From contig NZ_CP059066.1 of NCBI RefSeq assembly GCF_017301615.1, positions 1,905,001-1,969,000 on the forward strand: 64,000 nt of DNA, read 5' to 3'. The notes under the pieces are model-generated. The model was not told the origin of the DNA. It saw only the letters and a program-made list of their open reading frames with translations, and did no database searches. Below are positions 45,763 to 64,000 of the stretch, one piece after another. The position numbers and the translations under genes are program-made. Source of the DNA: Koleobacter methoxysyntrophicus. Its GTDB lineage: Bacteria > Bacillota > Thermosediminibacteria > Koleobacterales > Koleobacteraceae. The first letter of the stretch is position 1, and every line of letters starts with the position of its first letter.

Positions 45763-46113
45763 ATGAAGTTGGAAGAAATAAGGGTTATTCTAAAAGCCCA
45801 AAGATTATGGGATTTTCCTGGGGATATAGAGGTATGTTCGGCCTGTGGTTCGGACCTGATGAGTGATGTTCTTGCCTTAACTAAAGAGCATTCCCTGCTG
45901 CTTACCGGCCTTACCAACAGTCAGGTAATCAGAACGGCCGAAGTTATTGACCTTTCGGGAATAGTTTTTGTTAGGGGTAAACGGCCGGGAAATGATGTTA
46001 TCCAAATGGCTGAGAAGAAAGGTATCCCCCTTTTACTGACACAATACCCTATGTATGAAGCGTGCGGCATTTTGTTCAAGCATGGAGTAAAGGGGAGCAG
46101 TCAAGTTGATTGA
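45763..46113 (+). CDS. DRTGG-domain protein
   Basis: A 116-residue protein from ATG 45763 (MKLEEIRVILKAQRLWDFPG). It contains VCSACGSDLMSDVLAL, LLLTGLTNSQVIRTAEVIDL, IVFVRGKRPGNDVIQMAEKK and GIPLLLTQYPMYEACGILF, the pattern of the DRTGG domain that accompanies CBS and phosphotransacetylase proteins and is regularly found in clostridial hydrogenase clusters. Its ligand is not known; a small-molecule sensing role is inferred. The end overlaps the following CBS gene by eight bases. Confidence 0.75.
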   Translation: MKLEEIRVILKAQRLWDFPGDIEVCSACGSDLMSDVLALTKEHSLLLTGLTNSQVIRTAEVIDLSGIVFVRGKRPGNDVIQMAEKKGIPLLLTQYPMYEACGILFKHGVKGSSQVD

Positions 46114-46238
46114 TAAAAGGGTAAAAGAATTTATGAATCAAGAGATTGTGGTAATCAGCTATAAAAGAAAGGTTAAAGAAGCTAAAGAGATAATGCGGTT
46201 AAAAAATCTAACCGGCATACCGGTAATAGATGAGAATA
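46106..46238 (+). pseudogene. CBS-domain/ATPase gene, 5' part (interrupted by the ISAs1-type element)
   Basis: Encodes the first 44 residues, MIDKRVKEFMNQEIVVISYK to GIPVIDEN, the start of a CBS domain. The gene is cut at GATGAGAATA (46229-46238), one of two 10-base target duplications. Removing the element and one duplication joins this codon for codon to 47873-48654. The original protein would have 304 residues. Confidence 0.9.
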
Positions 46239-46304
46239 CAGGGCAAAATCATTTAAAAAGCTTCTACCCAAATTTTAACTTGGCTTTTTTTTAAATTTTA
46301 TTTT

Positions 46305-46495
46305 ATGACTATCCCCTTAGCTCAGGGAGAATTAAATGGCATCCCTCCGCTTGCCGTTCGCTCCGCATCCATGCTCCGCTCACTCTGGAATTTGGCTCTC
46401 CGCCATCCATGGCTCCGAGCCAAATTAACAGTCGCTCCGGGATTTGCCATTAATTCAACTGGACTTGCTGTGTCCTGAGTAAAGTATATAGTCAT
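46305..46495 (-). mobile_element. Full-length MITE-like element nested in the insertion sequence (copy 3)
   Basis: A 191-base non-coding element. The left end ATGACTATCCCCTTAGCTCAGG and the inverted right end ATGACTATATACTTTACTCAGG agree at both the outer eight and inner six bases. Both flanks are ATTTTATTTT (46295-46304 and 46496-46505), a 10-base target duplication. The interior is rich in GGAGCC/GGCTCC-type palindromes and carries no gene. Confidence 0.88.
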
Positions 46496-46598
46496 ATTTT
46501 ATTTTAATCGGACGTCTTACCATGTTGTTTTTATGAAATTTGTGAATTAGTAAAACAATTTTTATGTACAAGTATACTTCACCTTGCGAATCCCTGTT

Positions 46599-47741
46599 TT
46601 ATTCAAATAATATATACTTCAGATACTCTTCATCAATCATACAATTTAATCTTTTTTTCTTTAGGCTCATATATTTTGTATCATCTTTTCTCAGTAAATT
46701 CATGGTTAATCGCCTCAACAATGCCATGTTCTCTGCTCCATAATCTTTTCTTATCCTGCTACCATCTTCATTGTATGTAACATCCAAAACCCAGTGTACC
46801 TTGTTTTCTACTCCCCAGTGACCTCGTACAGCTCTCTCAAATTCTTTGGCATCAGGTCCTATACTTGCTATGAAATGGCGATATTCTATACTTTTTTCGT
46901 CACCTATAATCCTCTCTGACTTTACCATTCCAATTGCTTGTAATTTAGTCCAATCATCTTTCTGGCTTAACCAACTAACATAGTCAGTAATATAATAGTC
47001 GCGTATTTCTATCCTTCCATGACCTTTATCTATTGTTCTTAAATGATCCATTATACAGCCATGTTTCGCCAGATCCTGCTCAAGTAATTTATCACTTTTA
47101 TTTATGACTTCCTTATCAAAAAATTCTACAACCTCATCATGAAGAGTACCTTGGTTCCCCTTAAGAGCTAATACATAATCCGCATTATGCCCTACTATTT
47201 CTTTTGTGATTTCCTTCTGTGTTCCCATCGCGTCAATTGTTACTATACACCCTTCTATAGCTATCATTCTAAGAAGTTCAGGTATTGCTGTTATCTCATT
47301 TGATTTTTCTTCTGTCTTTATTTGAGCTAAAACCAGTTTGTTTTCACTCGCCCATGCGCTTATAAGGTGTATTGCAGCTTTACCTTCAACCTTATTATAC
47401 GAACGTTTTACCCTTTTTCCATCTATCGCTACAATCTCACCTTTTGTCATCACTCTGACTGCCTCTACCCACTTCAAAAAACATTTTTGAAACTCTTCAG
47501 GCCTGATCCTTTGAATTACCCTTCTAAAGGTATCTTTCGATGGCACTCCATGTGGTAATTCTAAAAAATTTGAAAACCATTTTTCTCTTTTCTGACAGTA
47601 AAAAGCTATCTCATCCCAATCTTCTATACCACATAAAACTGCACATATTGTCATAAATATAATATCAATTAATTTATGCCGTTTATTATCAGCTCTTGGG
47701 TCCTCAATTTCTCCAAAATATTCTTCTATTTTCGTCGTCAT
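46599..47741 (-). CDS. ISAs1-family transposase
   Basis: A DDE transposase of 380 residues. It begins MTTKIEEYFGEIEDPRADNK and DIIFMTICAVLCGIEDWDEI, the DUF4338-like H_repeat N-terminal region, and has IVAIDGKRVKRSY (first D), CIVTIDAMGTQKEI (second D) and HWGVENKVHWVLDVTYNEDG (E), the signature end of this family. It appears intact, so the element could still move. The start at 47741 or 47756 is not decided by a clear ribosome binding site. Confidence 0.93.
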   Translation of the reverse strand: MTTKIEEYFGEIEDPRADNKRHKLIDIIFMTICAVLCGIEDWDEIAFYCQKREKWFSNFLELPHGVPSKDTFRRVIQRIRPEEFQKCFLKWVEAVRVMTKGEIVAIDGKRVKRSYNKVEGKAAIHLISAWASENKLVLAQIKTEEKSNEITAIPELLRMIAIEGCIVTIDAMGTQKEITKEIVGHNADYVLALKGNQGTLHDEVVEFFDKEVINKSDKLLEQDLAKHGCIMDHLRTIDKGHGRIEIRDYYITDYVSWLSQKDDWTKLQAIGMVKSERIIGDEKSIEYRHFIASIGPDAKEFERAVRGHWGVENKVHWVLDVTYNEDGSRIRKDYGAENMALLRRLTMNLLRKDDTKYMSLKKKRLNCMIDEEYLKYILFE

Positions 47742-47872
47742 TCTATCACCTGCCATACAGTAAATATATTTTCGTAAACTACTGTATCACAGGTGTTTAA
47801 GGTTGTCCAGTCCTATTTTTTTGCATGTGTCGCTTTTGCAAATTCCAAATGATTTTGCCCTGGATGAGAATA

Positions 47873-48654
47873 AAAAACTGGTTGGAATTATAAGTGTTTT
47901 AGATATAATAAAGGTTTTAGAGCACGAAGGAAAAGAGGGTTTAGATATGCCTCTGGAAGACGTTATGACGTACCCTGTAGAAACCCTTTTACCCGAAGAA
48001 GATATTGTTAAAGCCTTTTATAAGTTCAAAAAATACGGTTTCGGTCGGCTGCCGGTAATTGATACATCAAACCGGGTAATAGGTATAATAACCCCTATGG
48101 AACTTGCCGAGGGATTTGCAAGGTATTTGGGTATTCAGGAAAATACCGAAAACATTACAAAAATATCGGATGCAGACCGGCAGGATGATAATGTTATAAA
48201 ACTAGAAAACAGCGCTGATAATGAAGAAGGTGATAAAGCCCTTTTGAATATGCGTTTTAATATCATAGGCGGGGATTTTAACAGGGCGGGAGAGGCATCC
48301 GGCCAGATTAAAGCAAAGCTTAAACAGCTAGGCATAGATTCTGAGACGATTAGAAGGGCTGCAATAGCAAGCTACGAAGCGGAGATGAACATAGTCATTC
48401 ATGCATATGAAGGTGCTTTGATGGTTACGGTAGCTGAAAAATATATAAAGATTATAGCTAAAGACAAAGGCCCCGGGATTCCGAATATCGAACTGGCCAT
48501 GCAGGAAGGATATTCAACTGCTTCAGATAAAATAAGGGAACTGGGATTTGGGGCCGGTATGGGTCTTCCAAATATGAAGAGGTGTTCAGATGAATTTGAA
48601 ATACAATCAGAGGTCGGTGTAGGGACCAGTGTAAAAATGGTTATTCGTTTTTAA
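47873..48654 (+). pseudogene. CBS-domain/anti-sigma-type ATPase gene, 3' part
   Basis: Continues from 46238 with KKLVGIISVLDIIKVLEHEG, a second CBS domain (MPLEDVMTYPVETLLPEEDI...GRLPVIDTSNRVIGIITPME), and a C-terminal histidine-kinase-like ATP-binding domain (RRAAIASYEAEMNIVIHAY, DKGPGIPN, GFGAGMGLPNMKR), similar to anti-sigma factor kinases. Such CBS-HATPase proteins are standard members of clostridial hydrogenase clusters. The reading frame is undamaged beyond the insertion, so a shortened protein might be made by internal initiation, but no good start was found. Confidence 0.85.
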
Positions 48655-56540: not shown

Positions 56541-56636
56541 CTGACTATATACTTTACTTAGGATAACGCAAATCCAGTTGAATTAATGGCAAACACATAA
56601 GCGAATGTTATTTGGCTTGGAGCCATGGATGGCGAA
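56541..56636 (+). repeat. Copy 4 of the dispersed MITE-like repeat, 3'-truncated
   Basis: Begins CTGACTATATACTTTACTTA, contains TTGAATTAATGGCAAACACA and GGAGCCATGGATGGCGAAGA. It matches the left half of the reverse complement of 46305-46495. The other terminal repeat is missing. Confidence 0.8.
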
Positions 56637-56679
56637 GAGCTTATATACATTACATTATTCCCGGAAAGGGAGGATACTT

Positions 56680-59289
56680 TTGTTAGGGATAATTTCAACA
56701 ATAAAGGATAAATGCAGACAATGTTATTCATGTGTCAGAAACTGTCCGGTAAAAGCAGTGAAGGTGCAAAACGGTCAGGCAGAAATTTTATACGATAGAT
56801 GCATAAACTGTGGAAACTGCGTTAAAGTCTGTTCGCAAAATGCAAAATATATACAGCGGGATGTGGAAAAGGTTTTAGGGATGATAAAAAAAGGGGAAAA
56901 GGTAGTGGCATGTCTGGCACCCAGCTTCCCTGCAGTAATAGGGGAATTTACCCCAAACCAGTTGGCAGGGGCTTTGAAAGGTGTCGGATTTTACCAAGTA
57001 AGGGAAGTATCCTTCGGTGCTCAGATAATGGCTGAAGAATATGTAAACCTGTTTAAAAAATGGCCGAACAAAAAGACCATGATCAGCACCCCATGCCCTG
57101 CAGTTGTTAACCTGGTTGAACGACATTATCCCGCTTTGCTTCCCAATCTGGCTCCTATAGTGTCACCTATGGAAGCTATAGCAAGGTATGTAAAACTAAC
57201 CAGTTGTGAACCCTTAAAAGTAGTATTTATCGGTCCGTGTGTTGCTAAAAAGGAAGAGGCTCAAAATAGCCTTTATGTTGATGAAGCATTAACCTTTGAC
57301 GAAATGTTTGAGATAATAGAAGAAACAAATTTTATAGACAAACCCGTAGAAGCCCCGTTCGATGGCCCGGAACCCTCCCATAAACCCAGAGCCATTTCTA
57401 TCTCGGGGGGACTCCTCCATGCTGTAGGCGAAACCGAGGATGTATTACGAAGTGAAATACTCATAGTGGAGGGCAAGGAAGACTGCATCTCAATCATAGA
57501 AAGCCTGATAGAAAAGAAAATTTCGCCCAGATTTATTGACATGCTGTTCTGTAAGGGGTGTATAGACGGCCCTATTTTGAAAAAAACCAATGTCTTCAGC
57601 AATCAATATGCCGTGTCCAAATTTATCTTTAAAAATGAGGTTGAATACCGCCAACCTGCAGAGCCCTATAAAAAGAAAATTGATTTAACCAGGAGTTTTT
57701 ATAATAAGAAGAAATCCCTTCCCATTCCGGGAGAGGAAGAAATTCGAAAGATTTTAGAGCACACGAATAAGAGAAGACCTGAAGATGAATTAAATTGCGG
57801 GGCTTGCGGCTACAGTTCCTGCAGGGAAAAGGCTGTTGCTGTTTTTCAGGGAATAGCAGAAATCGAAATGTGCCTGCCGTATTTGCTGGAAAAGGTCAGT
57901 GCAGAGCTCGAGACAATTAAAGAATTAAATGAAGAATTGGATGCAATAATAGAATCGTCATATGACGGTATTTGGCTGGCTGACAGTAACGGCAATACTT
58001 TAAGGGTTAATAGAGCCTTTTGCAGGTTAGTTGGCCTTAAACGCGAAGAATTGATAGGAGAGAAAACTGCAGAACTTGAAAAGAAAGGGGTTATATTTCC
58101 TTCGGTTACAAATCTTGTCCTGAGGGAGAAACGCAGGGTTACCGTAATACAGGAGACGAAGTTGGGGAAAAAACTTCTAACAACAGGGAACCCCATATTT
58201 AACGAACATGGAGAAATAACCCTGATAATGATAAATGCGAGGGACTTTACCGAATTAAACCGCTTAAGCCAAGATATAAGCGAAACTAAAAAGCTAAAAG
58301 AATACTTACAATCACGTGAAAATATTGGCGCAGAAATACAACCCGCTAAGGTTATAGCTTTCAGCCAAAAGATGGAAAACATCCTGCAGTTAGCTGCAAA
58401 GATCGCAGATGTGGATTCTACAGTATTGATTCTAGGAGAGTCGGGAGTAGGCAAAGAGGTTATTGCCCGGTTCATCCACAAAAGGAGCCACAGGGATAAA
58501 GGGCCTTTTGTAAAAATCAACTGTGGCGCCATTCCCGAGACACTGTTGGAATCTGAACTTTTCGGATATGAAACCGGGGCTTTTACGGGAGCAAAAAGAC
58601 AGGGAAAACCCGGCCTTATTGAAATGGCCAATGAAGGGACACTGTTTTTAGATGAAATAGGAGAACTGCCTTTAAATCTTCAGGTAAAGCTTCTGCAGGT
58701 ATTACAGGAACATCGGCTGGTCAGGATAGGCGGGATAAAACCCATAACAGTAAATATACGGGTCATTGCAGCAACCAACAGGGATATAGAAAATATGGTT
58801 AAGAAGGGGGAATTTAGAGAAGACCTGTTTTACCGGCTGAATGTAGTGCCGATTACAATACCACCGCTAAGAGAAAGAAGGGATGATATAATCCCCCTCA
58901 TATATCACTTTCTTGAAGAATACAATAGAAAATATGATAAAGCTAAAAAGATATCGGCAGAGGCTAAAGATATTCTGATAAAATATAACTGGCCCGGCAA
59001 TGTAAGGGAACTTGAAAATACCGTTGAGAGGCTTGTTGTTACGGTAGAAGAAGATGTTATACTTCCCCATCACCTCCCCGAAAACTTGAAAGAGATAAAT
59101 ATTCCGTTTAAGGAAGTTAATGTAGACGGGATAATGCCTCTAAAAGACGCGGTTGAGATGGTTGAAAGGCAGCTGTTGCATAAGGCTGTAGAACAATGCA
59201 ATTCCACTTATGATATTGCTAAAATCCTTGGTGTTAATCAGTCTACTGTTGTAACCCAAGTTTGGCGCAAAAAATTTCCAGCCAAGTAG
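56680..59289 (+). CDS. Sigma-54 activator with [FeFe]-hydrogenase-like sensor and PAS domain
   Basis: An 869-residue transcription activator. Order: two 4Fe-4S motifs (CRQCYSCVRNCP, CINCGNCVKVCS; 12-51), a hydrogenase large-subunit-like domain with STPCPAVV, GPCVAKKEEA and FCKGCIDGP in place of the catalytic loops (about 60-330), an Fe-S domain CGACGYSSCREKA (near 370), PAS (422-530), the sigma-54 AAA+ domain with GESGVGKE (near 584) and GAFTGA (near 631), and a C-terminal HTH. GAFTGA is the sigma-54 contact loop, so it should activate -24/-12 promoters. TTG 56680 has AAAGGGAGG before it; earlier starts would read MITE sequence. The stop lies beside the IS1634-type element, so slight 3' trimming is possible. 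Confidence 0.9.
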   Translation: MLGIISTIKDKCRQCYSCVRNCPVKAVKVQNGQAEILYDRCINCGNCVKVCSQNAKYIQRDVEKVLGMIKKGEKVVACLAPSFPAVIGEFTPNQLAGALKGVGFYQVREVSFGAQIMAEEYVNLFKKWPNKKTMISTPCPAVVNLVERHYPALLPNLAPIVSPMEAIARYVKLTSCEPLKVVFIGPCVAKKEEAQNSLYVDEALTFDEMFEIIEETNFIDKPVEAPFDGPEPSHKPRAISISGGLLHAVGETEDVLRSEILIVEGKEDCISIIESLIEKKISPRFIDMLFCKGCIDGPILKKTNVFSNQYAVSKFIFKNEVEYRQPAEPYKKKIDLTRSFYNKKKSLPIPGEEEIRKILEHTNKRRPEDELNCGACGYSSCREKAVAVFQGIAEIEMCLPYLLEKVSAELETIKELNEELDAIIESSYDGIWLADSNGNTLRVNRAFCRLVGLKREELIGEKTAELEKKGVIFPSVTNLVLREKRRVTVIQETKLGKKLLTTGNPIFNEHGEITLIMINARDFTELNRLSQDISETKKLKEYLQSRENIGAEIQPAKVIAFSQKMENILQLAAKIADVDSTVLILGESGVGKEVIARFIHKRSHRDKGPFVKINCGAIPETLLESELFGYETGAFTGAKRQGKPGLIEMANEGTLFLDEIGELPLNLQVKLLQVLQEHRLVRIGGIKPITVNIRVIAATNRDIENMVKKGEFREDLFYRLNVVPITIPPLRERRDDIIPLIYHFLEEYNRKYDKAKKISAEAKDILIKYNWPGNVRELENTVERLVVTVEEDVILPHHLPENLKEINIPFKEVNVDGIMPLKDAVEMVERQLLHKAVEQCNSTYDIAKILGVNQSTVVTQVWRKKFPAK

Positions 59290-61185
59290 TAGCAAGGGTT
59301 TAAAGGGACAAAAAGCGACTTTTCTCTACTACTTGGTAGAATGTTCCAGTAGTTGATTTAAATACTTCCTAGAAATGAGATATTCAAAACCTAACTCCTT
59401 CAGGATCTCCAGTTGCTGTGTGGTGACTTCAGTAATACTTTCTGCATACGATTCACTGTTTTTAAACCCGATACGATTCAAAAGGCACTTGCCCAATATT
59501 TCCAGAGCAGTTGCTGCACTGCATTGATAGTGTTGTTGCTGTAGTTTTTCTTCTAATGCATTTAGCAGAAGGTATCCCAGCACACAGATGGTGACATGGG
59601 CCCTGACTCTTTTTTCACGGCTCAAGAAAAATGGCCTCAAATGGAGGTGATCCTTGAGTTCTCGAAAGGCATCTTCCACTTTGCTTTTACGCCGGTAATA
59701 TCGGATTACCTGGCAGGCAGGAAGTTTGTCTGTGGGCTCATTGGTTACAAAGCACGTAATTCCATCCAGGCTCGCCTGTTGTTTGAGTTTGTCTTCATTA
59801 ATGGTGTAAACTACTCGAAAGGAGTCAATCTTTTGTCCGGTGCCTTTTTTAGTAATAGCAATAGGCTCCAGTTCCCAAACAAATACTTTATGCATATTCC
59901 ATTTTCTGAGCTTGTTTTCTATCCTGCGTGCTGTTGCTTCTCTGTTCCGGCTCTTTTGGGCATGTTTGAGTTCATTGTTGCAAGCTGCTAAATATGATTT
60001 CGCTTTTTGCAAACGTTCCTGCCTGTTTTGCTGTTGGTCCTGATATGCTTGACGGTTAAAGGCCAGGATATATCGCACCTTACCTTTAATGTGTTCACGG
60101 TAAACAAGGTTTTCGTCATAGAGATTAAAACCGAGGGATAAAAGGTTATCTCGCCAGTAACGTTCATCTACCACCAGACTTTGAAATTCGGCTTCCATAA
60201 GCCCAAGACCGGACACCTCATCTTTATCAAGGGCAGAAATATAAGTGAGTTTCTTTTCCGCAATGGCTTCGAGGTTATTTTGGGAAACCATACCACGGTC
60301 AAATACTAATAAACATTCTTCAATCCCAAAGCGTTCTTTAAGAATCAGTAATAAATCTTCTACCGTGGTAACATCCTGGGTATTACCCGGCATCACCCGC
60401 CAGTAAAAAGGGTAGCCATCCGGTGTGACCACCAGAGCGATAGTAATTTGAAGTCTGTCAGGCCGATGATCGCGAGAATAACCCTTAAAAGCCAAAACAC
60501 ATTTTGTTCCCTCAAAATAGCTGGAGGTAATATCGTAAAAGACAGCCTTTTCGTCAGTATGACCTAACTGCTTGCATTTTCGATAAACATGTTTCTGCAA
60601 CTCTACTTCTTGGTCAGTGATTTTATCCAGAGTACGGTAGATGCTGTATTCACTGTCAGCACTAAAGTCGTATCTCAATAAACGGGGTAAAATGGTCTGC
60701 TGTGTCCAGTCTTGAATTTGAATTTTGCTTTTGGGATCCAAACAACGATTAACAGCCATAGCTTCGGCATAAGGCAGTTCGGCAAAGTATTGATCTAAAT
60801 CAAACTGCCGCCAAATATCATCAAGCACAGCGACATCAAGAAAACGATAATGCTCTTTGGCTACTACATCAGACAAATGACCAACGAAGACATCTTCAAT
60901 TTGTTTTGCCTTAAGCACAAGTTTAATACGCTGGGCTTGTTCTTTAGTCAAGGAACCCAGATTTGCGATATGACGGTGTTTTACTTTACCGTTTTCTCGA
61001 TAAGATTCGGTTAAAGCATAGGTTTCATAAACCTTACCTTTATAAGTTTTTCTGGCTTTTTTAAGGAACATCACTGGCCTCCTGCAGATTATTGGCTACT
61101 ACAATTATACCACAGGAAGCGCTCAATATCAAGTAAACTCGAAAGTTGAATGAAAGTATCGCACGTTTTCTCTACTACAAATCAC
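59290..61185 (-). mobile_element. IS1634-family insertion sequence, ends not exactly placed
   Basis: One transposase gene with short non-coding flanks. GTAGTAG near 59286-59292 and CTACTAC at 61174-61180 are inversely related and may mark the termini, but no clean target duplication was found, so the borders are approximate. Confidence 0.7.
59329..61074 (-). CDS. IS1634-family transposase
   Basis: A 581-residue IS4-superfamily DDE transposase. Recognisable parts are GKVKHRHIANLGSLTKEQAQ, DEKAVFYDITSSYFEG (first D), EECLLVFDRGMVSQNNLEAI (second D) and YRRKSKVEDAFRELKDHLHL followed by RPFFLSREKRVRAHV (the Y-2-R-3-E-6-K-like end). It looks complete. It lies between the sigma-54 activator and the second hydrogenase operon, pointing the opposite way. 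Confidence 0.92.
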   Translation of the reverse strand: MMFLKKARKTYKGKVYETYALTESYRENGKVKHRHIANLGSLTKEQAQRIKLVLKAKQIEDVFVGHLSDVVAKEHYRFLDVAVLDDIWRQFDLDQYFAELPYAEAMAVNRCLDPKSKIQIQDWTQQTILPRLLRYDFSADSEYSIYRTLDKITDQEVELQKHVYRKCKQLGHTDEKAVFYDITSSYFEGTKCVLAFKGYSRDHRPDRLQITIALVVTPDGYPFYWRVMPGNTQDVTTVEDLLLILKERFGIEECLLVFDRGMVSQNNLEAIAEKKLTYISALDKDEVSGLGLMEAEFQSLVVDERYWRDNLLSLGFNLYDENLVYREHIKGKVRYILAFNRQAYQDQQQNRQERLQKAKSYLAACNNELKHAQKSRNREATARRIENKLRKWNMHKVFVWELEPIAITKKGTGQKIDSFRVVYTINEDKLKQQASLDGITCFVTNEPTDKLPACQVIRYYRRKSKVEDAFRELKDHLHLRPFFLSREKRVRAHVTICVLGYLLLNALEEKLQQQHYQCSAATALEILGKCLLNRIGFKNSESYAESITEVTTQQLEILKELGFEYLISRKYLNQLLEHSTK

Positions 61186-61310
61186 TGTTCTATGGAACTT
61201 AATCCCTGATTTATAAAGGTTGGAAAATATTGTCGCCAAACTTGAGTTGTAAGAAAGATTCAGAAGTACGGGATAAAACTAAAAAGAGATCATAAAGGTA
61301 ATTAATGGGT

Positions 61311-61423
61311 AAATGCATTATTTAATGCAGCGCTGCATTAATAAATTTATATCATAAAAAAACTAAGCTTAACAGATAGAATAAACAATTAAATGCATCC
61401 GTGCATTTTTAACAAATGCATTT
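61311..61423 (+). promoter_or_regulatory. Cluster of palindromic upstream activator sites
   Basis: TTAATGCAGCGCTGCATTAA (61322-61341) is a perfect 20-base palindrome. AAATGCA-TCCG-TGCATTT (61391-61408) is a perfect 7-4-7 inverted repeat of the same half site. Shorter AATGCATT (61312-61319) and AAATGCATTT (61414-61423) flank them. They lie about 180-280 bases upstream of the -24/-12 promoter, the usual place for enhancer sites of sigma-54 activators. Confidence 0.75.
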
Positions 61424-61463
61424 TTTAACATTATATAAATAAATCATTTTTTTATATTACTTC

Positions 61464-61486
61464 AAACCGGGAATCCCGGTTTTTTT
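61464..61486 (+). terminator. Terminator upstream of the sigma-54 promoter
   Basis: Perfect stem AAACCGGG/CCCGGTTT with loop AAT and a T run. It would stop transcription arriving from the left before the second hydrogenase operon. Confidence 0.85.
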
Positions 61487-61489
61487 AAT

Positions 61490-61571
61490 TGACTATAAAC
61501 TTTACTCAGGATACGGCAAGCCCGGTTGAATTAATGGCAAACACATAAGCGACTGTTAATTTGGCTCCTAG
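61490..61571 (+). repeat. Copy 5 of the dispersed MITE-like repeat, truncated
   Basis: Begins TGACTATAAACTTTACTCAG, contains TTGAATTAATGGCAAACACA and GACTGTTAATTTGGCTC. It is inserted between the activator sites and the promoter. TTTTAATT occurs on both sides (61483-61490 and 61576-61583), possibly a target duplication. Confidence 0.8.
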
Positions 61572-61593
61572 CCTGTTTTAATTCGTTTTTTAC

Positions 61594-61609
61594 TGGCATG
61601 AAAATTGCA
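61594..61609 (+). promoter_or_regulatory. Sigma-54 (-24/-12) promoter of the second hydrogenase operon
   Basis: TGGCATGAAAATTGCA matches the consensus TGGCAC-N5-TTGCA in every core base, with GG and GC at the exact distance. It lies 51 bases before the hydC start. Confidence 0.88.
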
Positions 61610-61659: not shown

Positions 61660-62205
61660 ATGAGTGAAACATATGGTTTTAAGGAAATAGGTGAACAGGA
61701 ATATAAAAAGGTAGATGAGATAATCGATAAATTTTCAGGTGAAAAAGGAGCACTAATACCGATATTGAGGGAAATTCAAGATTATATCGGTTATCTGCCC
61801 AGGGAAATTCAGGTAAGGGTCGCTGAAAAATTAGATATACCGTTAAGTGAAGTTTACAGCATAGTAACGTTTTATGCCTTATTTTCCCTTAAACCTAAAG
61901 GCAAATATCAGATAAACCTGTGTAAGGGGACGGCCTGCTATGTAAGGGGGGCTGACAGGATCCTTGAAAAGGTTCGCGATGTTTTGGGAATAGGCCCCGG
62001 AGACACTACGGATGACGGGTTGTTTTCACTTGATGTTATAAGGTGTCTTGGTGCCTGTGGATTGGGGCCCGTTATCACTATTAATGATGAAACCTATGCC
62101 CGCTTGAAGCCTGATAACATACCTGAGATAATTGCAAGGTATAAAGACATCGGGAGTAAGGATTTTACCGTTCAGCCCGAAAAAGAAGTGGCTAAAAGCC
62201 GCTAA
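61660..62205 (+). CDS. hydC: Second hydrogenase subunit HydC (NuoE-like)
   Basis: A 181-residue [2Fe-2S] NuoE/HydC protein. Cluster cysteines are in LCKGTACYVRGAD and IRCLGACGLGPVITIND; GALIPILREIQDYIGYLPRE corresponds to the first operon's copy. It has about 15 extra residues at the C-terminus (TVQPEKEVAKSR). ATG 61660 has GGAGG nine bases before it. First gene behind the sigma-54 promoter. Paralogue of 51170-51655. Confidence 0.93.
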   Translation: MSETYGFKEIGEQEYKKVDEIIDKFSGEKGALIPILREIQDYIGYLPREIQVRVAEKLDIPLSEVYSIVTFYALFSLKPKGKYQINLCKGTACYVRGADRILEKVRDVLGIGPGDTTDDGLFSLDVIRCLGACGLGPVITINDETYARLKPDNIPEIIARYKDIGSKDFTVQPEKEVAKSR

Positions 62206-62243
62206 GAACCCTTTTAAGGGGTTAAGAGAGGGAGGTGGAGAAG

Positions 62244-62588
62244 GTGATATCCTTAGCTGACCTAAATGAAATAAAAAGGTCATATCGAGAACCTGAAGGA
62301 GTGCAGATTGTTGTCAGACTGGGCATTTGTGGAGCTTCAGTGGGAGCCAAAGAAGTTTTTGAAACATTTAAAAATGTAGTTAAGGAGAAAGGAATAACAG
62401 GTGTTCGCATATATACTACCGGCTGTATAGGTTTGTGTTCACAGGAACCGGTTGTGGATGTTGTTGTGCCCGGAATGCCCAGAGTTACCTATACATTTGT
62501 CACACCCGAAAAGGCAAGGGGAATAATCTTCCATCATATTGAGAGGAAACAAATCATCAAGGAATGGGTTATTCCGAATCTGGGATAA
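62244..62588 (+). CDS. Thioredoxin-like [2Fe-2S] ferredoxin, second copy
   Basis: A 114-residue paralogue of 52217-52579 with VVRLGICGASVGAKEVF and TTGCIGLCSQEPVVDVV carrying the cluster cysteines. GTG 62244 stands eight bases after GGAGG (62231-62235); the in-frame GTG 62235 overlaps the ribosome binding site and is rejected. Unlike the first operon, no ATPase gene lies between hydC and this gene. Confidence 0.86.
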   Translation: MISLADLNEIKRSYREPEGVQIVVRLGICGASVGAKEVFETFKNVVKEKGITGVRIYTTGCIGLCSQEPVVDVVVPGMPRVTYTFVTPEKARGIIFHHIERKQIIKEWVIPNLG

Positions 62589-62619
62589 TAATCATAATTA
62601 TCTAAAAGGAGGGACGGAT

Positions 62620-64000
62620 ATGCGATTGTATCGTTCCCACGTTCTTGTATGTGGGGGGGCAGGCTGTATTTCTTCCGGTTGCAAAAAAGTGCAGGAAGCC
62701 TTAATTGAAGAGATAAAGAAACTTAACCTTGAAAAGGAAATAAAAGTGATAACTACAGGTTGTATGGGGCCCTGTGACCTTGGACCCGTTATGATAATCT
62801 ATCCTGAAGGGGTTTTCTATAAAAAGGTCCAGGTTGGAGACGTAGAGGAAATAGCAAGGCGCCATCTCCTTGAGGGTGAAATTGTAGAAAGACTCCTGTA
62901 TAAGTCCCCCAAAACGGGAGAGGCTGTTTCCAATTTCAACGATATATCCTTTTTCAACAGACAGGTTAAGATAGCATTGAGGAACACCGGTTTAATTGAC
63001 CCTATGGTTATCGAAGAATATATAGCTCAGGATGGATACGCTGCCCTGGCAAAGGTGTTGAGCCAAATGACTCCAGATGAAGTAATAGAAGAGGTCAAAA
63101 AATCCGGTCTTAGAGGAAGGGGCGGCGGCGGTTTCCCCACAGGTCTGAAATGGAAATTTACAGCGAAGGCTAAAGGGTCGCCGAAATATGTGGTTTGTAA
63201 TGCCGATGAGGGGGATCCGGGAGCCTTTATGGACAGGAGTATATTAGAAGGAGACCCCTTCAGCGTAATTGAAGCAATGACTATTGCCGGATATGCGGTA
63301 GGGGCAAATCAGGGTTTCGTCTACGTTAGGGCAGAATACCCACTGGCAGTTTCCCGCCTGACCCATGCCATTGAAAAGGCAAGGGAATACGGTCTTTTAG
63401 GTGAAAATATAATGGGAACGGGCTTCAGTTTTGACCTCGATATAAGGGTCGGTGCGGGGGCATTCGTTTGCGGTGAAGAAACAGCACTGCTGGCCTCTAT
63501 AGAAGGCAAAAGGGGAGAACCCAGACCGAGACCCCCCTTCCCGGCAAATGAGGGATTGTGGGGTAAACCGACCCTTATCAATAATGTTGAAACATATGCA
63601 AATATACCCGTTATAATACTGAAGGGCGGGGAATGGTTCAGTAAGCTGGGTACCGAAAACAGCAAAGGAACTAAAGTCTTCGCTTTAGCCGGCAAAATAA
63701 ACAATACCGGGCTGGTTGAAATACCTATGGGCACCTCGCTGGGTGAGATAATATATGATATAGGGGGAGGTATTCCCAACAGGAAGAAATTCAAGGCAGC
63801 CCAGACGGGAGGGCCATCAGGCGGATGTATTCCGAAGGAATACCTGAATACACCTATTGATTATGATTCCCTGAAAGAATTGGGAACCATAATGGGGTCC
63901 GGAGGTCTAATAGTCGTTGATGAGGATACGTGTATGGTAGATTTTGCCAGGTTCTTTCTGGAATTTGTTCAGGATGAGTCCTGCGGAAAGTGTGCTCCGT
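62620..64000 (+). CDS. hydB: Second hydrogenase subunit HydB (NuoF-like), partial at window end
   Basis: Starts MRLYRSHVLVCGGAGCISSG and runs off the window after about 460 codons. It has the N-terminal 2Fe-2S domain (TTGCMGPCDLGPVMIIYPEG), [52 protein letters not shown], and the beginning of the 4Fe-4S motif DESCGKCAP. It is clearly a paralogue of 52624-54417 in the same order. AAAGGAGGG precedes ATG 62620. A hydA copy is expected next, outside the window. Confidence 0.93.
   Translation, partial: MRLYRSHVLVCGGAGCISSGCKKVQEALIEEIKKLNLEKEIKVITTGCMGPCDLGPVMIIYPEGVFYKKVQVGDVEEIARRHLLEGEIVERLLYKSPKTGEAVSNFNDISFFNRQVKIALRNTGLIDPMVIEEYIAQDGYAALAKVLSQMTPDEVIEEVKKSGLRGRGGGGFPTGLKWKFTAKAKGSPKYVVCNADEGDPGAFMDRSILEGDPFSVIEAMTIAGYAVGANQGFVYVRAEYPLAVSRLTHAIEKAREYGLLGENIMGTGFSFDLDIRVGAGAFVCGEETALLASIEGKRGEPRPRPPFPANEGLWGKPTLINNVETYANIPVIILKGGEWFSKLGTENSKGTKVFALAGKINNTGLVEIPMGTSLGEIIYDIGGGIPNRKKFKAAQTGGPSGGCIPKEYLNTPIDYDSLKELGTIMGSGGLIVVDEDTCMVDFARFFLEFVQDESCGKCAP

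Follow-up and report, generated by a model that had tools for sequence, protein, structure and literature searches.

The stretch of DNA considered here, a window of 64,000 nucleotides from Koleobacter methoxysyntrophicus, raises the question of how an [FeFe]-hydrogenase operon is, or once was, switched on by a protein encoded next to it. The original prediction placed two palindromic enhancer sites and a perfect sigma-54 promoter upstream of the second hydrogenase operon and read them, together with the activator gene next door, as a full circuit. We examined the target, promoter, operator and activator of this proposed circuit in the window, in the remainder of the genome and in related genomes.

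The target is as predicted, with the gene order nuoE - small ferredoxin - nuoF - hydA downstream of the promoter. The first gene of this operon 2 encodes a nuoE-like [2Fe-2S] subunit (61660-62205, + strand; PF01257) and is followed on the same strand by a gene for a small ferredoxin-like subunit (62235-62588), which has no Pfam match, and by a nuoF-like gene identified by Pfam, which begins at 62591, runs past the window end at 64000 and encodes 1021 aa in all. The hydA gene (574 aa) is next after nuoF, beyond the window. The NuoF of operon 2 is fused to a Fer4_20/Pyr_redox_2 (NfnB/GltD-like) module (L019, 2591-5653), unlike the 597-aa NuoF of operon 1; this difference suggests that the electron partners of the two hydrogenases are not the same and may include NADPH.

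The -24/-12 promoter, TGGCATGAAAATTGCA, occupies positions 61594-61609 on the + strand, and transcription is predicted to start at about 61620. Its spacing is exact for sigma-54, with GG-N10-GC (kept in relatives) in a TGGCA..TTGC context, but its description as perfect was slightly strong, since one base (T for C) departs from TGGCACG-N4-TTGC. It fits the published Clostridiales consensus TTGGCATNNNNNTTGCT (PMC6615313) save for the two outermost bases. A search of the genome for TGGCAYGNNNNTTGCW returned three occurrences, compared with none for a reversed-pattern control. The other two are likewise in sigma-54 contexts, one at a mannose-type PTS operon adjoining a LevR-like gene and one at an aminotransferase gene that immediately follows the gene of a sigma-54 activator. 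The rpoN gene, whose absence would have refuted the prediction, is present (G000:C1:2933339-2933815, E 7e-63, in a 464-aa ORF). Together with approximately 29 sigma-54 activators and further strong -24/-12 boxes before metabolic genes, it indicates that the organism is a heavy user of sigma-54. A candidate second rpoN at 2036 kb was rejected because its partial matches to the sigma-54 DNA-binding domain overlap the 999-aa frame of a LevR-like activator.

Both palindromes are present at the predicted positions and share the half site AATGCA. These are TTAATGCAGCGCTGCATTAA, a 20-bp perfect palindrome at 61322-61341, and AAATGCA-TCCG-TGCATTT at 61391-61408, and both reduce to a 16-bp motif, AATGCA-N4-TGCATT. 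The motif defines UAS site 2 (AATGCA-GCGC-TGCATT, 61324-61339, the core of the 20-bp palindrome) and UAS site 3 (AATGCA-TCCG-TGCATT, 61392-61407). A degenerate UAS site 1 (AATGGG-TAAA-TGCATT, two mismatches, 61304-61319) precedes the perfect palindrome by 20 bp, or two helical turns; like its counterparts in relatives, it overlaps the stop codon of the ancestral activator gene. No strand is assigned to any of these sites. A genome search for such palindromes, as proposed with the prediction, found the exact motif only twice in 3,102,782 bases, as sites 2 and 3. Two sites with no more than one mismatch fall in the 359 bp between the ancestral activator stop and the nuoE start, against 0.007 expected, and none of the 1000 dinucleotide shuffles contained as many. 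Elsewhere in the genome, one-mismatch sites were considered as extra targets and rejected, most of them lying inside coding genes; they included three near-identical copies in one repeated sequence and one site at an IclR-type gene.

The activator is encoded upstream of these sites, and the 5' part of its gene (56680-59254, + strand) was delimited by Pfam, by sequence and by an alignment of the protein with about 8-9 relatives (alignment A1). The probable start is the TTG at 56680, preceded by GGGAGG. By Pfam, the domain order is two [4Fe-4S] domains, Fe_hyd_lg_C, a Cx2Cx4Cx16C FeS motif, PAS (443-547), a sigma-54 AAA+ domain (PF00158, E 1e-71, with the GAFTGA loop in A1) and the first half of an HTH that aligns to Fis residues 55-95. 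The H-cluster motif cysteines C139, C187, C291 and C294 are invariant in A1, as are C373, C376, C381 and C398 of the C-terminal Cx2Cx4Cx16C motif. The protein has the features of a group C-like sensory [FeFe]-hydrogenase, namely Fe_hyd_lg_C with the cysteines of all three H-cluster motifs, Cx2Cx4Cx16C and PAS, and the two sets of invariant cysteines agree with how putative sensory hydrogenases of group C have been described (PMC8163306).

An IS element of 1992 bp (59255-61246, - strand) lies inside the recognition helix of this activator. It was found by searching the genome with the intergenic DNA, which returned four copies, and is delimited by these copies, by its termini (CYCAAGTTTGGCG / CGCCAAACTTGRG) and by the 6-bp duplications at the four copies (TTGTAA, TTTCTA, TATATA and TATTAT). 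The left and right copies of the target-site duplication TTGTAA are at 59249-59254 and 61247-61252 (no strand), and a DDE transposase gene occupies 59329-61074 on the - strand. The activator ORF as now encoded (56605-59289) ends in NQSTVV-TQVWRKKFPAK*, of which the last 11 residues are IS-encoded, so that the helix is cut between VV and RK. The detached 3' end of the ancestral gene, (R)KIQKYGIKLKRDHKGN*, was recovered at 61253-61305 (+ strand, stop TAA 61303-61305) by translating the joined flanks, which at the empty site read NQSTVVRKIQKYGIKLKRDHKGN*, in agreement with every relative in A1; the RK that follows the cut is kept without exception in the 8 relatives having this HTH. Beyond the IS, the ancestral C-terminus runs up to the first UAS site. 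The sites come immediately after the ancestral stop codon, and the IS accounts for their look of a free-standing intergenic feature. The insertion is known from one genome of the species.

These observations modify the claim of a full circuit: operator, promoter and target are supported, but the activator does not have an intact DNA-binding domain in this genome, and the distance between UAS and promoter has been lengthened by a repeat. A reading of "activator next door" can overlook such a severed domain. An AF2 model of the HTH places a helix (83-94) at the IS-encoded end with a pLDDT of ~60-79, compared with ~92 in an intact relative, and the homologous alignment drives this helix. DNA binding by the activator in this genome is probably weakened or lost; some may remain, given the modelled helix and the surviving N-terminal half of the recognition helix (NQSTVV). 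In view of the helix of lower confidence at the foreign end, we grade DNA binding as probably impaired rather than abolished.

The motif was derived from this window alone and then tested in other genomes, where conservation in seven other genera supports the operator, promoter and target. Six relatives (G002, G003, G005, G008, G013 and G014) have the same order, the sensor-activator gene and then nuoE-fd-nuoF-hydA, and all six carry tandem sites from the activator stop codon followed by a GG-N10-GC box before nuoE (AGGTATAAAAATTGCT in G005), usually with one further site, sometimes degenerate, before the promoter. In the distantly related Alkaliphilus serpentinus, a single exact site is placed at the activator stop, and the GG-N10-GC box before the same operon is TGGCATACTTCGTGCG. 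Two genomes of one family, G038 and G255, have the activator gene convergent to the hydrogenase operon; here the site precedes the operon instead, as two tandem sites 20 bp apart and ~60-80 bp before TGGCATGAAATTTGCA in G038 and as AATGCAGGTGTGCATT in G255. This layout indicates that the sites go with the target promoter rather than with the activator gene. Sites are present where the HTH reads NQST(I/V)VRK with one exception, G024, in which none was found on a short contig that has a hydrogenase gene upstream of the activator. Fusions with other HTH types had no sites in any of the sampled loci, though most have a -24/-12 box behind the activator. The association between HTH type and operator is the best evidence that the activator would read these sites.

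The interval between operator and promoter has also been altered in this genome. An intrinsic-terminator-like hairpin, ACCGGG-AAT-CCCGGT with a T run (61466-61487, + strand), stands, by eye, where the hairpin of the relatives closes the activator gene. A ~97-bp copy of a dispersed repeat (61480-61576, + strand), which the genome search found in at least 36 copies, lies between the UAS and the promoter. Rfam gave no match at 61480-61576 or elsewhere in the control region, and we therefore do not call the repeat a riboswitch. The distance to the promoter is 195 bp from site 3 and 264-284 bp from sites 1-2, compared with 60-218 bp in relatives; the repeat has raised these distances, which without it would be near those in G003. 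In lying upstream of the promoter at about the 100-250 bp expected of a UAS, and in being conserved in orthologs, the sites qualify as a UAS. Distances of 100-250 bp are usual in Clostridiales (PMC6615313), which means that the promoter may still be within reach of the sites here.

Other mobile DNA is present in the window. The dispersed repeat is MITE-like, with copies at 46304-46496, 56542-56617 and 61480-61576, one of them in the 5' leader of the sensor-activator gene; a full-length copy has imperfect 23-bp terminal inverted repeats, TATGACTAT.../...ATAGTCATA. The CBS-HATPase regulatory gene that heads hydrogenase operon 1 (46106-48654) is also interrupted. Its CBS domain is cut off near 46270 (GIPVIDENTG) and continues from about 47836 (KLVGIISVLDIIKVLEHEG); the interruption holds a full-length repeat (46304-46496) together with an IS transposase (46599-47756). 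The regulatory genes by both hydrogenase operons thus hold insertions.

Taken together, we consider it likely, with a probability of approximately 80%, that the region is the control region of a sigma-54-dependent [FeFe]-hydrogenase operon with an ancestral activator circuit that the IS has impaired in this genome. In this circuit, a single protein would have combined a group-C-like [FeFe]-hydrogenase sensor, a C-terminal [4Fe-4S] cluster, PAS, AAA+ and a Fis/TyrR-type HTH, and would have bound the 16-bp AATGCA-N4-TGCATT sites just behind its own stop codon. By DNA looping it would then have reached the -24/-12 box, ~150-220 bp downstream, opened the sigma-54 RNA polymerase there and switched on nuoE-fd-nuoF-hydA. 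In this genome, IS sequence stands in place of the C-terminus and of the second half of the recognition helix. Operon 2 may now be silent, may be activated weakly by protein in solution, or may depend on a different activator. The split helix and the repeat between sites and promoter indicate that an ancestral, conserved circuit has probably been impaired in this genome. The sequence itself shows the sites, the promoter spacing, the synteny and conservation, rpoN and the two insertions; that the activator binds the sites, that H2 or redox state is its signal, which way it responds, where transcription starts and that function is lost here are what we infer.

Several other readings of the region bear on this conclusion. 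The palindromes could be RNA hairpins or chance AT-rich inverted repeats rather than operators, given that a terminator hairpin stands just 3' of the sites and that the third site overlaps the terminator hairpin in some relatives. This is very improbable for a 12-base motif that is exact just twice in 3.1 Mb and is kept across genera while its N4 spacers vary, and in G038 the sites stand 60-80 bp before the promoter without an activator end close by. The promoter itself could be vestigial, with operon 2 driven mainly by a housekeeping promoter or by read-through; the broken activator and the terminator-like hairpin and repeat between UAS and promoter would agree with this, but the -24/-12 box is still essentially perfect, and we regard this reading as unlikely.

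The remaining readings concern what might act at the sites in place of the ancestral activator. Some sigma-54 activators act without a DNA-binding domain, and the chimera with an IS-encoded C-terminus might still work, by a residual HTH or from solution, and keep the circuit functional. The ORF open to 59289 and the helix retained by AF2 at 83-94 are consistent with a working chimera, which is possible but on the whole unlikely in view of the invariant RK with which every relative having this HTH continues past the break, the fall in pLDDT at the foreign end and the changed distance between UAS and promoter. The sites could instead be served in trans by another of the ~29 sigma-54 activators of the genome, one of which (L173, CBS-CBS-PAS-AAA-HTH, near 706-708 kb) shares the recognition-helix core in the form NQSTIVRK; the C-terminus of this activator reads ALNVNQSTIVRKAKKYGISVK, and the sites remain exact despite their broken cognate activator. 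Service in trans seems improbable, as the remainder of the L173 HTH differs, the single AATGCA site near the L173 gene is inside a coding gene, and a recent IS insertion would account for the intact sites as well.

The activator at 706-708 kb (L224 3390-5138; G000:C1:706-708 kb) has a CBS-CBS-PAS-sigma-54 activator architecture around its NQSTIVRK core, and 3' of it an IS-type transposase stands between two identical Hsp20-like genes.

Fusions of this kind extend well beyond the present locus. The sensor part was found at E <= 1e-80 in 123 of 398 genomes of the phylum, in many cases in frames of 730-900 aa, and the loci examined usually have a -24/-12 box within 450 bp behind the fusion. Targets include the [FeFe] NuoE/F/HydA operon, and in Desulfosporosinus, Thermincola, Carboxydocella and others the fusion is followed by the gene for the small subunit, and usually also by that for the large subunit, of a [NiFe] uptake hydrogenase, such that an [FeFe]-type sensor apparently controls [NiFe] enzymes. 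At L099, L100, L105, L107, L109, L136 and L152 a -24/-12 box separates the [FeFe]-type sensor fusion from the [NiFe] uptake hydrogenase genes immediately behind it. Other fusions precede U32-peptidase, Etf or transporter-like genes, and the term "hydrogenase switch" does not hold for all of them. At L261, L264, L266, L267 and L268 (HTH LKRSTLNEM) a -24/-12 box is followed 0.6-0.9 kb further by a U32-peptidase-like gene, and no hydrogenase is close by. We lean slightly toward the view that the fusions are widespread one-protein switches of anaerobic Firmicutes, wired through adjacent -24/-12 promoters to [FeFe] and [NiFe] hydrogenase operons and to a small number of other targets, the operator varying with HTH type and being AATGCA-N4-TGCATT for the subtype found here. 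In K. methoxysyntrophicus the IS would have removed the DNA-reading head and left an exact orphan operator and promoter as a natural rewiring experiment, in which a broken switch can be compared with intact ones.

Known systems share individual features with this arrangement. In the H2-sensing HoxBC-HoxJ-HoxA system of Cupriavidus, the hydrogenase genes are under an NtrC-type activator that itself answers to a regulatory hydrogenase; that system has three components and a [NiFe] sensor, whereas here a single polypeptide carries an [FeFe]-type sensor. The HTH of the activator is of the TyrR/Fis type (HTH_50, PF18024; Fis structures 1ETY and others) and aligns to Fis, but it would recognise a different operator, and it is split by an IS. 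The sigma-54/EBP regulons of Clostridiales reconstructed by Nie et al. 2019 (PMC6615313) are alike in that a one-component EBP lies next to the only operon it targets and that the -24/-12 box comes with several UAS sites. Fe_hyd_lg_C, FeS and PAS are among the EBP input domains listed in that survey, and the domain architecture was thus already known. A hydrogenase regulon is represented by 0 of 39 entries in its Table 1, and the available text does not name AATGCA-N4-TGCATT. Within the open-access literature we found no paper on this operator or on the fusions as hydrogenase regulators, and work on sigma-54 in other taxa contributed nothing about the control of [FeFe]-hydrogenases. The group C/D putative sensory [FeFe]-hydrogenases TmHydS and TamHydS (PMC8163306, PMC8924675) likewise have an H-domain and a C-terminal Cx2Cx4Cx16C cluster, with PAS in group C, and a gene adjoining a NuoE/F/HydA bifurcating-type hydrogenase. 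They are discussed with kinases or unlinked regulators, whereas in the present protein the sensor shares its chain with a sigma-54 activator, which forms the output. A 2022 review (PMC8924675) describes the sensory role of group C/D enzymes as putative and the physiological evidence as scarce; where the sensor doubles as the transcription activator and its operator, promoter and target are defined, the question of this role becomes a simple reporter experiment.
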